Source: Acidobacteriota bacterium (lineage in GTDB: Bacteria; Acidobacteriota; Vicinamibacteria; Vicinamibacterales; JAFNAJ01). From it: 34,055 nucleotides of DNA. Numbering within the stretch: the stretch's first letter is position 1; every line of letters begins with the position of its first letter. Below the pieces are notes generated by a model. It was not told where the DNA came from. It saw only the letters and a list, made by a program, of their open reading frames with translations, and made no database searches. Position numbers and translations under genes: made by a program. The DNA lies in NCBI GenBank assembly GCA_023384575.1, contig JAHDVP010000050.1, positions 1 to 34,055 of the forward strand. The letters run 5' to 3'. Shown in pieces: positions 8,287 to 17,711 of this stretch.

Positions 8287-8724
8287 TCACGCCTGGCGTG
8301 ACTTCAGGAGGTCGCGGATCTCCTGCAACAGGACCTCCTGCCGAGGGGGCTCGGGAGGCGCCGCGGGTGCCGCCTCTTGCTGCCGCCGCAGGCGGTTCAT
8401 GCCGCGCACGAGCATGAACACCGCGAAGGCCACGATCAGGAAGCTGATGATCGCGTTGAAGAAGACGCCGTACGCGATGACCGCCGCGCCGGCCTCGCGC
8501 GCGGCCGCCAGCGTCGCGTAGGGGGCCGGTGCCGACGCGCCCTCACGCACGACCAGGAACAGCTCGGTGAAGTCGACGTTGCCGAGCATCACGCCGATGG
8601 GCGGCATCAACACGTCGTTGACGAGCGAGCTGACGATGGTGCCGAAGGCCCCGCCGATGATGATGCCCACGGCCATGTCGACGACATTGCCGCGCATGGC
8701 GAACTCACGGAACTCCTTGAGCAT
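8287..8724 (-). CDS. mscL: Large-conductance mechanosensitive channel MscL
   Basis: The 145-residue inner-membrane protein opens a large pore under membrane tension and releases solutes during hypo-osmotic shock. It begins [20 protein letters not shown], the typical N-terminal amphipathic helix and start of TM1, continuing through [19 protein letters not shown] and [11 protein letters not shown]2 is [22 protein letters not shown]. The C-terminal cytoplasmic helix carries an Ala/Pro-rich linker and [14 protein letters not shown], as in the family. The start chosen is the ATG at 8722-8724; the frame extends further upstream but the family N-terminus begins here. It lies 79 bp downstream of the DUF481 gene on the same strand. 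Confidence 0.95.
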
Positions 8725-8803
8725 GGCGTCCTCCCGGGACGGTGTGCGGCGTCTTCGCCGAAGGAGGCACCCGGGCCCGCCCACGGCGCTCCCGTCGCGT
8801 GAC

Positions 8804-9574
8804 TCAGAACTTGTAGACCAGCGCCACCACGATTGCCACGTCGTTCTTCTCGACGCTCTCGTCAGGGGGCTTGTGCTTGTACGTGCTGAGGACCTCCGCC
8901 TTGATCTGGCTCCGTGAGGTCACCGACGCGGTGATCCCCGCGCCCACGGTGTACAGCCCGTCGGCGAAGTCGTCCATCTTCCACAGAGCCGTGACGACCT
9001 GGGTCACCGAGGCCGTCTCGCTCAGCTTCGCCTCGAGCTTCTGTCCGGCGCTCACTGCGCCGGACGCGTCGACGCGCCGGCTCGTGTTGCGCTCCCAGAC
9101 CCCGCCGGCCCCGGCGTCGATCGTGACCCGGAAGCCGTCGTCGTCGACGAGGCGATAGCCGACGCCCGCCGTGGGCGACACGAGGTACTCGATCTCCTTG
9201 AACTCGTCGCTCAGATACTGCACCTGGCCGAAGACGAACCCCCGGTCAGAGAAGCGGTACTCGTCGCGGCCGAGCAGCGAGAGGCGATCGACCGACAGCT
9301 CGCCGTCGGTCTCGCCTCGCAGGTAGAGCCCCTCGGCCTTGAACAGGTTGCGCGCCTTGGGGTCGCGCACCACTCCGAAACCGAGGTTGTAGTTCTGGGT
9401 GTCGCTGTTGCCCGAGGTCACGGCCAGGCCCGCGCTCACCGAACCCGTCCATGCCGGGGGCGGCGGATCCGGCGGGTCCGGGGCGACCTGGGCGATGACG
9501 GGTGCTGCGCCGAAGGCGAACGGCAGGAGCAGGCAGGCGATGCAGGCGACGGTCGACGAAGCAGAAGACGGCAT
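8804..9574 (-). CDS. DUF481 (YdiY-like) outer-membrane beta-barrel protein
   Basis: This 256-residue protein has a signal peptide (hydrophobic [19 protein letters not shown]) and a short proline-rich linker. The rest is made of alternating strands typical of DUF481, starting [19 protein letters not shown], a family hallmark, then [30 protein letters not shown] and a terminal strand ending VALVYKF with C-terminal Phe. Family members are salt- or acid-induced outer-membrane proteins of uncertain role. The start is the ATG at 9572-9574, with a GAGGTGG about 14 nt upstream. It precedes mscL, but the 79-bp gap makes co-transcription uncertain. Confidence 0.88.
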
Positions 9575-9630
9575 CGATTCGGCAGAATACCACCTCGACG
9601 GAACGACCCGCGAGTTCGCGGGCCCGTCGG

Positions 9631-10716
9631 TCAGTCGAACGACAGGGCCAGCAGCACGACGAGCAGCACCGCGAGCACGATGAAGAAGATCTTCCAGGGA
9701 CTCTTCGGATACTCGCCGGCGATCCGGCCCGTGTAGCCGTTGGCGATCACCTGGTAGGCGCGTCGACCGTAGTCGTAGACCAGCAGCCACACCGGCACGA
9801 GGATGTGCTTGAACGTCTGGCCGGAGAACTCCGGGGCGATTTGCAGGTTGCGGTGCGTGTCGCCGGGAACCGCCGCCGCGCACATCTGGCGCAACTGTCC
9901 GGTCATCGACTCCTGGGCGCGCCTGGCGGCGTCGATGAGCACGACCTGGTAGTGCTCGACCACGAAGCCGGCGACGAACGCCCGGTCGTACGGCACGAGA
10001 TCCTGCGTCGGGAACGGCTCGATGGCGCGCAGCAGCTCCGGGTGGATCCCGTGCGTGCCCGCCACGGGCTCATCGTCGAAGAAGTGGTCGACGACGCCCG
10101 ACGCCGGCTCCCAGCGGACGTGCCGCACCTGGCGCGTCTTCATCTGCCCGCCTTCGCGGTATCGCTCGGTCGTGTAGTAGTAGTGACCGGCCTCCGCCCG
10201 CCACGGACAGCGCACGTGCGCGTCGAAGGTCCAGTACGGAATGTAGACGCCCTTGACCGTGTCGATGAGCGCCTTTCGCTTGAACGCATTCGGCGCGAGC
10301 CACTTGCTGCCGAACCAGCGACGGAGGTCCTCGCGCACCTGCCCCTGGCCGAGGCGGAACGGCAGCAGGCTCTGGGGCCGGATTGGCGCCTTGATCTCGT
10401 CGTAGTCGACGAGCTTCGGCGCGCCGCAGAACTCGCAGTTCTGGCCCACGCGGTCGGGATCGAACACCGACACCGCCCGACAGCTTTGGCACTGGACGGT
10501 CCGCTTCTCGGCCTGCCACCCGCGGAGGTCGTCGGGCAGGTCACGCAGCGTCGTGACGAGGTCGATCTCGTGAATCTGGCCGGTCGTCCGATCGACCTCG
10601 TACGGCGACTCGGTGCCGCAGAACGGGCACACGAGCTGCTGCTTCCCCGCGTTCCACTCGGCCTGCGCGCCGCAGGCCGGACACGGGTACTTCGAGGTCG
10701 CGGTCAGCTCCGACAT
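9631..10716 (-). CDS. Double zinc-ribbon protein with C-terminal membrane anchor (YdjG-like partner of SPFH protein)
   Basis: The 361-residue protein has one zinc ribbon at the N-terminus (CPAC at residues 12-15 and CPFC at 30-33) and a second (CQSC and CEFC) about 45 residues later. The middle domain contains PYWTFDAHVRCPW and a GHYYYTTERYREGG region. A single hydrophobic helix (IFFIVLAVLLVVLLALSF) ends the protein, so the ribbons face the cytoplasm on a tail anchor. Proteins of this build are often mis-annotated as PriA because of the ribbon. The gene lies 22 bp after the SPFH gene. In Bacillus subtilis the comparable pair YdjG (zinc ribbon, membrane) and YdjI (SPFH) recruits PspA to stressed membrane; a similar membrane-stress role is inferred here. 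Confidence 0.72.
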   Translation of the reverse strand: MSELTATSKYPCPACGAQAEWNAGKQQLVCPFCGTESPYEVDRTTGQIHEIDLVTTLRDLPDDLRGWQAEKRTVQCQSCRAVSVFDPDRVGQNCEFCGAPKLVDYDEIKAPIRPQSLLPFRLGQGQVREDLRRWFGSKWLAPNAFKRKALIDTVKGVYIPYWTFDAHVRCPWRAEAGHYYYTTERYREGGQMKTRQVRHVRWEPASGVVDHFFDDEPVAGTHGIHPELLRAIEPFPTQDLVPYDRAFVAGFVVEHYQVVLIDAARRAQESMTGQLRQMCAAAVPGDTHRNLQIAPEFSGQTFKHILVPVWLLVYDYGRRAYQVIANGYTGRIAGEYPKSPWKIFFIVLAVLLVVLLALSFD

Positions 10717-10738
10717 CGCCTCGCGCTCCGGCCGGACG

Positions 10739-11836
10739 TCAGCCGGCGAGGAAGGCGTCGAGCGCCGACCGCGTGATGCGCCAGGTCGAGCCGATCTTCC
10801 TGCCGGCGAGCTCGCCCGATTCGAGGATGGCCAGCACGTCGGTCTCGGCGACGGCGAGCGCCTGAGCCACCTGGGCGGGCGTCAGGATGTCGGCCAGCGG
10901 GGCCGCGGCGCCCGCGGCAGCGACGGACGCGCCGGCCGGGCCCGCGACGGACGGCGTGGGCGGCGGCACGAGCCCGCCGCCCTGCTGGGCCTGTTGCTGC
11001 ATGATCTGCTGCGCGATCGCAAACCCCACGGCCAGCTCGGAGGCCGTGCCGGCCGCGCCTCCGCCACCGCCAGCCTCCATGCCCTTCGCCATCTGGTACT
11101 TGACGAAGTCGTTGAGATTGCCGATGGCGGCCATGCTCGACCGCTTGTCGATGGCGGCCTCGACCTCCGGCGGCACCGAGACGTTCTCGACGATGAAGCT
11201 GGTCGTCTGGAGGCCGTACTTCGCCGAGATGACCGGGTTGATGAGCGGCAGCAACGCGTCGCCGAGCTCGGTGTACCGGGTGGCGACGTCGAGCACGGGG
11301 ATGTTCGCCGACGCCAGGGCATCGCTGAAGACGCTCACGATCCGCGAACGCATCGTGTCGGAGAACTCGTCGAGGCGGAAGTTGTGGTCGGAGCCCGCGA
11401 CTTCCTTGAGGAACAGCTTCGCGTCGACGATGCGGAAATCGTAGATGCCGAACGCCCGGGCTCGCACGATGCCGAAGTCGGGGTCGCGCAGCATGATGGG
11501 GTTCGCCGTCCCCCACTTGTTCCCGGTGAAGAGGCGCGTCGTGACGTAGTAGACGTCGGCCTTGAAGGGCGAGTTGAAGCCGTACTTCCACGACTTCAGC
11601 CTCGTGAGGATCGGGATGTTGTCGGTCGTCAGCGTGTGCTTGCCCGGCCCGAACGTATCGCCGAACTCGCCGAGGTAGACGAACTGCACCACCTGCGACT
11701 CGCGGACGATGAGCTGCGCGCCGTTCTTGATGGCCTTGTCCTCGTCGGGAAAGCGATACGAGAGCGTGTCGCGGCTGTCGTCGGTCCACTCGATGATCTC
11801 GAGGAGCTCGCCCTTGATGAAGTCGAAGATGCCCAT
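10739..11836 (-). CDS. SPFH/band-7 (YdjI-like) protein with C-terminal excisionase-type HTH
   Basis: The 365-residue protein starts MGIFDFIKGELLEIIEWTDD, the hallmark of YdjI-type SPFH proteins, which oligomerise on membranes. The SPFH core includes RESQVVQFVYLGEFGDTFGPG and ITTDN-like TLTTDNIPILTRLKSWKYG, and VSVPPEVEAAIDKRSSMAAIG near the end. A Gly/Ala/Gln-rich linker (residues 250-310) follows. Residues 314-365 form a helix-turn-helix of the HTH_17/excisionase type, with LTPAQVAQALAV and the wing AGRKIGSTWRITRSALDAFL. The usual C-terminal part of YdjI is not this domain. The RBS GGGAGGG lies 11 nt upstream. The zinc-ribbon gene follows 22 bp later. No transmembrane segment is seen; membrane attachment would be through the N-terminus or the partner. 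Confidence 0.8.
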   Translation of the reverse strand: MGIFDFIKGELLEIIEWTDDSRDTLSYRFPDEDKAIKNGAQLIVRESQVVQFVYLGEFGDTFGPGKHTLTTDNIPILTRLKSWKYGFNSPFKADVYYVTTRLFTGNKWGTANPIMLRDPDFGIVRARAFGIYDFRIVDAKLFLKEVAGSDHNFRLDEFSDTMRSRIVSVFSDALASANIPVLDVATRYTELGDALLPLINPVISAKYGLQTTSFIVENVSVPPEVEAAIDKRSSMAAIGNLNDFVKYQMAKGMEAGGGGGAAGTASELAVGFAIAQQIMQQQAQQGGGLVPPPTPSVAGPAGASVAAAGAAAPLADILTPAQVAQALAVAETDVLAILESGELAGRKIGSTWRITRSALDAFLAG

Positions 11837-16895: not shown

Positions 16896-17711
16896 TCAGG
16901 CTGGCCGTCGCGCGCGGATGAACGCGCTCGCGAACTTTCCGTCGACCTGCTCACCCAGCGCCTCGACGTCGATGCCGGCGGCCGTCAGGAAGTCGCGCGC
17001 CTCATCGACGCGGTAGACCCGCCACGGCTCGATGTCGACGTCGACGAAGCCGGCCGTCTCGAGCAGGGTCCGGTACTCGTGCTCGCCGAGCGCGCCGGCG
17101 ACGCAGCCGACCCACAGCTCGATGCTCCGCCGGATCGCCGCGGGCACGTCGCCCCGCACGACGACGTCCGACACGGCGAAGCGGCCGCCGGGCTTCAGCA
17201 CGCGGAAGGCCTCGGCGAGCACGCGGCGCTTGTCGCTCGACAGGTTGATCACGCAGTTGGAGATGATCACGTCGACCGACGCGTCGGGCAACGGGACGTG
17301 CTCGATCTCCCCTTTGAGGAACTCGACGTTCTCGACGCCGGCGCGGGCCTGGTTCGCCCGGGCGAGCTCGAGCATCTCATCGGTCATGTCGAGGCCGTAG
17401 ACCTTGCCCGTCGGTCCGACGCGCCGCGCCGAGAGCAGGACGTCGATGCCGCCGCCCGAGCCGAGATCGAGCACCGTCTCGCCGGGAGCGAGCGCGGCGA
17501 GGGCGGTGGGGTTGCCGCAACCGAGCGAGGCGGCGAGGGCCTCGGCGGGCACGCTGCCCGCCTCGGCGCGATCGTAGAGGTCGGCGGTGATCGGGTCGCT
17601 GGTCCCGCTCGGCGCGCAGCCGCAGCCGCACGACGCCCTGCCGCCGGCGCGCGCCTGGGTGGCGGCGGCGCCGTACTTCGCCTTGATCTCGTCCTTCAGT
17701 GTCTGAGCCAT
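16896..17711 (-). CDS. arsM: Arsenite S-adenosylmethionine methyltransferase
   Basis: The 271-residue enzyme methylates As(III) to methylated, partly volatile arsenicals using SAM. The SAM site is [14 protein letters not shown] (about 80-93). The three conserved arsenic-binding cysteines are at 65 (SLGCGNP), 153 (ISNCVINLS) and 203 (WVGCVAGAL); the 50-residue spacing between the last two matches characterised ArsM. An additional cluster CGCGC lies at 28-32. The N-terminus [20 protein letters not shown] is typical. It is downstream of the arsR-like gene and has its own operator-flanked promoter. No arsenite efflux pump or arsenate reductase is adjacent, so detoxification by methylation may act alone here or with genes elsewhere. 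Confidence 0.92.

Follow-up and report, generated by a model that had tools for sequence, protein, structure and literature searches.

We describe a gene pair from an Acidobacteriota genome that encodes an SPFH protein ending in a helix-turn-helix (HTH) domain and a membrane protein with two zinc ribbons. With moderate confidence, we interpret the pair as a PspA-independent two-gene scaffold resembling YdjI/YdjG, in which an SPFH oligomer would be held by the zinc-ribbon anchor and the winged HTH domain (wHTH) would act as a protein-interaction adaptor. Both genes lie within the analysed stretch of 34,055 nucleotides, referred to below as the window.

Gene order and domain architecture

The two genes are on the minus strand. 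The gene of the SPFH-HTH protein (P0001, 365 aa; 10739-11836) is followed, after a gap of 22 nt, by the gene of the double zinc-ribbon partner (P0002, 361 aa; 9631-10716). The YdjI-type SPFH domain occupies residues 27-236 (11129-11758, minus strand); it was assigned by a Pfam match to Band_7_1 (PF13421; E 7.7e-82, 274.4 bits against a cut-off of 24), by an HMM match in the genome and by Foldseek. The C-terminal domain (residues 318-365; 10742-10885, minus strand) matches HTH_17 (PF12728) at residues 318-364 with 35.1 bits against a cut-off of 27 (E 1.6e-8), and the NCBIfam excisionase model TIGR01764 with 31.0 against 28.8 (E 2.5e-7). Between the two domains there is a variable Ala/Gly/Pro linker (residues 257-312; 10901-11068, minus strand), most of which has low pLDDT. 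As in YdjI-type SPFH proteins, the protein has no transmembrane (TM) segment of its own; its maximal KD19 of 1.43 is below TM-helix strength.

In the AlphaFold2 model, the last 45-50 residues are predicted at pLDDT 94-97 and have the MerR-type topology, helix-helix-strand-strand-helix. The best structural neighbour of this domain found by Foldseek is BldC (6ama; rmsd 1.8 A, target TM 0.76, 34% identity); a sequence search of PDB with the HTH peptide alone as a query gave no match. The Foldseek matches of the SPFH part are HflK/C, stomatin, flotillin and vault. This part is modelled poorly to only fairly (mean pLDDT of the whole model is 67; residues 1-42 and 69-92 are mostly below 50), and therefore no quaternary claim is built on the model. 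The mean column entropy in 94 sequences is 0.57 bits for the SPFH domain, 1.18 bits for the HTH domain and 1.65 bits for the linker; while the linker drifts, the HTH residues V329, D333, G341, I348, G349 and R353 are invariant. Pfam, NCBIfam, AlphaFold2 and Foldseek agree that the fusion of an SPFH protein to an HTH_17-type domain, reported in the preliminary description, is real, and the domain limits given there (residues 314-365) are correct to within a few residues.

The partner, characterized in the same description as a double zinc-ribbon, tail-anchored protein, is borne out as such. It contains two CxxC...CxxC ribbons, the first at 10618-10683 (minus strand; C12, C15, C30 and C33) and the second at 10426-10491 (minus strand; C76, C79, C94 and C97), and all eight cysteines are invariant in 61 aligned relatives. 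The Zn_Ribbon_TF family matches 53 of these 61 members at E<0.01; the Pfam match of the partner from the window is weak. A single TM helix is predicted at the C-terminus (residues 340-360; 9637-9699, minus strand) with KD19 of 2.96 at residue 343 and helix pLDDT above 90, and a TM-like segment is found at the C-terminus of 79 out of 79 partner sequences. Residues 150-335 form, in the predicted structure, a conserved beta-rich middle part with pLDDT mostly over 80-90. The search for partner folds in PDB gave no significant match (best Foldseek E 0.063; best VIA-align Z 4.6 over 62 residues), and an NTF2-like central fold was not recognised by either program. In one genome, the SPFH-HTH gene is followed by a tandem pair of partner genes (G158:C1, 5425754-5427838), the second being far more diverged than the first (28% vs 59% identity).

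Downstream of the pair, on the same strand, the window contains the genes of MscL and a DUF481 protein (8287-9589). A wider operon including these genes was considered and rejected: neither has a homologue in the related loci examined, and hence their proximity looks incidental. Clustering of neighbouring ORFs, made noisy by GC-rich antisense frames, revealed no gene, besides the partner, that is kept in most loci. Nine loci encode, near the SPFH-HTH gene and mostly immediately upstream of it, a protein in which a zf-TFIIB-like ribbon was recognized by eye (e.g. L041, 5151-5903). A separate gene of the window (16896-17711) encodes a SAM-dependent methyltransferase with a Cys-rich N-terminal start; by eye it resembles ArsM (arsenite methyltransferases), and its Pfam matches are to methyltransferase families only.

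Distribution of the fusion and pairing with the partner

A scan of the genome collection with the SPFH-HTH protein yielded 349 relatives, of which 80 were kept as matching end to end through the HTH domain (66-81% identity). By the titles of their records, which may be wrong for single MAGs, the kept relatives belong to Acidobacteriota, Verrucomicrobiota, Betaproteobacteria, Gemmatimonadota and Krumholzibacteriota. This set is biased towards the HTH domain, because one of the search peptides falls in it. A PF13421-only search of the window's order, which is free of this bias, identified 30 loci; 28 of them reach the C-terminus, and the HTH domain is present in all 28. In addition, both Band_7_1 and HTH_17 (the latter at E<0.01) were matched in 51 of 51 diverse relatives from five phyla, and thus the fusion does not stem from misassembly. 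The preliminary description had proposed to seek such fusions elsewhere as a check for an artefact; they are present in Acidobacteriota and in other phyla, five in all, and we reject both an artefact and a chance HTH match given the 51 relatives and 28 loci. Among 297 sampled genomes of the phylum, 136 have any relative, about 21 of them in the HTH form as counted from the listed matches. In Comamonas odontotermitis, a plasmid copy is named by NCBI 'SPFH and helix-turn-helix domain-containing protein', and the gene after it encodes a 'TFIIB-type zinc ribbon-containing protein'.

In the window's order, the SPFH gene was found in 65 genomes, the partner gene in 62, and both in 57. The partner is thus present in 57 of the 65 SPFH-positive genomes versus 5 of the 97 SPFH-negative ones (odds ratio 131, Fisher p 8e-29). 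It is located directly downstream on the same strand in 55 of the 57 genomes with both genes; in the two remaining cases the genes are on different contigs of fragmented assemblies. This co-occurrence and adjacency provide strong evidence that the SPFH-HTH protein and its partner function jointly. The partner gene was also found in 14 of 14 relative genomes tested, 12 of which had been picked for having no partner adjoining the SPFH gene and encode it elsewhere.

The C-terminal domain and its slot

In BldC, R30 and K26 read DNA, T27, T29, W31 and K33 hold phosphates, and the R30A substitution abolishes DNA binding (PMC5859096). The BldC sequence, confirmed against PDB, was mapped to the SPFH-HTH protein with a fixed offset of 306, which places A336, T332, D333, L335, I337 and E339 at the positions of R30, K26, T27, T29, W31 and K33, respectively. 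Position 333 is Asp in all 94 SPFH-HTH sequences, and position 339 is acidic (Glu or Asp) in 87 of them. Position 336 is never basic, being mostly Ala, Ser or Thr; the equivalent of K26 is mostly Ala, with one basic residue among the 94 sequences. Position 335, usually Tyr in the comparators described below, is aliphatic. The would-be recognition helix (residues 331-340; 10817-10846, minus strand) is acidic. Segment 329-342 carries a net charge of -3.73, ranging from -4 to -2 among the 94 sequences, whereas the value for 38 further HTH_17 domains of the window's order, many of them members of one orthologous family, is +2.5 and ranges from -2 to 4. A basic recognition helix with DNA-contact residues is absent from the 94 sequences. 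The wing (residues 344-356; 10769-10807, minus strand) is basic both in the SPFH-HTH proteins (+4.9) and in the comparator domains, and its invariant residues I348, G349 and R353 include the equivalent of BldC R48 (R353). Judging from these positions, the HTH domain is probably not a DNA binder in the usual way. Since its DNA-reading surface has turned acidic, it likely grips proteins instead; weak, non-specific or wing-led contact with DNA via the basic wing is possible.

The C-terminal slot has a varied history. In 32 more distant SPFH relatives it contains a zinc ribbon (17 proteins), GYF_2 (9), SHOCT by Pfam (4) or a BamE-like sequence (1). A same-family SPFH protein with a BamE/SmpA-like sequence in this slot is encoded at L165, 2853-3905. 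In the tree of SPFH domains the HTH form has one origin with support of 100/100, and the slot type changes nine times overall, as estimated from a non-exhaustive sample and a tree with several long branches and unsure deep placements. The zinc-ribbon partner is often found beside GYF_2 members, as it is beside HTH members. Proline-rich stretches of the PPP type are typical GYF ligands. Such motifs occur just before and after GYF_2 in all nine GYF_2 members, the second one near the extreme C-terminus; with these flanking motifs (L142, L148, L153-L155, L172-L175), GYF_2 could bind its own or a neighbouring subunit. Given the GYF_2 domains with their flanking motifs and the interchangeable domains, the slot seems to accommodate modules for protein interaction.

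A more specific model would treat the slot domains as interchangeable self-association modules. The acidic face (331-340) and the basic face (344-356) of the wHTH would stack head to tail by charge, similarly to the head-to-tail stacking of BldC on DNA but without DNA; GYF_2 would bind its flanking PPP-type motifs; and SPFH assemblies would be joined in this way to form a membrane coat that lacks PspA and is anchored through the zinc-ribbon partner. We regard this model as rather unlikely.

The preliminary description had suggested that the pair could tie membrane stress to DNA or to a protein target. The first option corresponds to a membrane-tethered DNA-binding scaffold, in which the HTH domain ties the nucleoid or a promoter to an SPFH ring and couples membrane stress to transcription. 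The clear HTH_17 match in sequence and fold, the DNA-binding function of the nearest structure, the basic wing with R353 and the zinc ribbons of the partner, which could touch nucleic acid, are all consistent with such a tether. However, the recognition segment is net acidic in each of the 94 sequences, with Asp and Glu at the phosphate-contact Thr and Lys of BldC and only non-basic residues in place of its base-reading Arg, and the same slot in relatives holds GYF_2, SHOCT or zinc ribbon domains. A DNA tether is therefore unlikely, and the proposed link of membrane stress to DNA is not supported; a protein target fits better with an HTH domain that has lost its DNA-contact residues.

PspA, the proposed scaffold and known systems

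No match to PspA/IM30 (PF04012) was found in the complete genome, either adjacent to the pair, where a check for pspA had been suggested, or anywhere else (control genomes were positive in 9 of 14 cases), and no match to TPM (YdjH-type, PF04536) was found in the genome. A PspA operon is rejected for this genome. In the order as a whole, strong PspA matches are present in 1 of the 65 SPFH genomes versus 21 of the 97 others, and with weaker PspA-like matches included the counts are 16 of 65 versus 28 of 97, showing no association; phylogeny confounds both comparisons. These counts bear on a conventional PspA-type stress module, in which the SPFH protein would recruit PspA to the membrane as in Bacillus subtilis and the HTH domain would be incidental. 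The closest described pair, YdjI/YdjG, does adjoin pspA, and Band 7 proteins occur beside pspA in Acidobacteriota (Popp et al.), but the absence of PspA from this genome, with working positive controls, contradicts such a module here and makes it quite unlikely. It is very improbable that the HTH domain is a decaying, functionless remnant of a past gene fusion, as the loss of DNA-contact residues might suggest, given that all 51 sampled members, from five phyla, retain it with invariant residues beside a freely varying linker.

SPFH proteins form oligomers. In the two-gene scaffold that we favour, the soluble SPFH-HTH protein would assemble into an oligomer, and the partner, with its one C-terminal TM helix, would recruit this oligomer to the inner membrane and hold it there. 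The wHTH would sit on the flexible linker, in the slot filled by GYF_2, zinc ribbon or SHOCT domains in relatives. Having no DNA-contact chemistry, it may serve as an adaptor that chains scaffold subunits or holds a client, by analogy with the binding of CbpA by CbpM. A role in envelope stress may be proposed by analogy with YdjI only.

The pair had initially been considered a possible undescribed envelope-stress module. The combination of an SPFH protein with a zinc-ribbon TM protein has already been described around PspA as the YdjI/YdjG pair (PMC8581546, PMC11237479), and the HTH architecture has been named by NCBI. On the other hand, a search of literature drawn mostly from non-subscription journals brought up no article on the HTH form, nor on how far it has spread, how it is paired or how its DNA contacts were lost. 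If our interpretation is true, a PspA-independent membrane scaffold of the YdjI/YdjG type is at work in a large clade that spans several phyla, among them Acidobacteriota, Verrucomicrobiota and Betaproteobacteria, and a DNA-binding fold has been turned into a protein adaptor. The automatic name 'helix-turn-helix' should then no longer be taken to mean a transcription regulator, and domain swaps would offer a direct test of what the small domains at the C-terminus of SPFH proteins do.

The closest known system is YdjI/YdjG of B. subtilis, encoded in the pspA-ydjGHI operon (PMC8581546, PMC11237479). YdjI is soluble, needs YdjG and YdjH for membrane localisation, and is required for PspA recruitment (PMC8581546); YdjG combines two zinc ribbons with a TM segment (PMC11237479). 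Like YdjI, the SPFH-HTH protein is of the PF13421 type, soluble, without a TM helix and with a C-terminal add-on after the SPFH domain. The partner encoded alongside resembles the published architecture of YdjG in its two zinc ribbons and TM segment, and may be its homologue. In contrast to Bacillus YdjI, for which a zinc ribbon is reported at the C-terminus, the SPFH-HTH protein ends in a wHTH, and unlike in pspA-ydjGHI, the genome has neither PspA nor TPM and the gene order is reversed, with the SPFH gene first.

The SPFH and GYF_2 pairs from Vibrio and Paracoccus plasmids (L172, L173) belong to the same SPFH family and have the same downstream zinc-ribbon TM partner, but contain GYF_2 with PPP-type motifs on both sides where the SPFH-HTH protein has its wHTH. 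In the SPFH and SHOCT proteins (PMC3581485), PF13421 is likewise followed at the C-terminus by a small domain whose adaptor role is uncertain, the two-helix SHOCT instead of a wHTH. The wHTH fold is shared with BldC and other HTH_17 DNA binders (PMC5859096), whose recognition-helix contacts are replaced in the SPFH-HTH protein by Ala, Asp, Glu and aliphatic residues. CbpM is a MerR-like protein that has lost DNA-binding residues and binds the J-domain of CbpA via an acidic and hydrophobic patch (PMC4063869). In contrast to the SPFH-HTH protein, it is a stand-alone dimer from another family without an SPFH fusion, and the CbpM-CbpA interface, formed mainly by helices alpha2 and alpha4, may differ from the acidic surface of the SPFH-HTH protein. 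Both proteins have a MerR-type fold without DNA-binding residues, and acidic residues that are free for protein contact.
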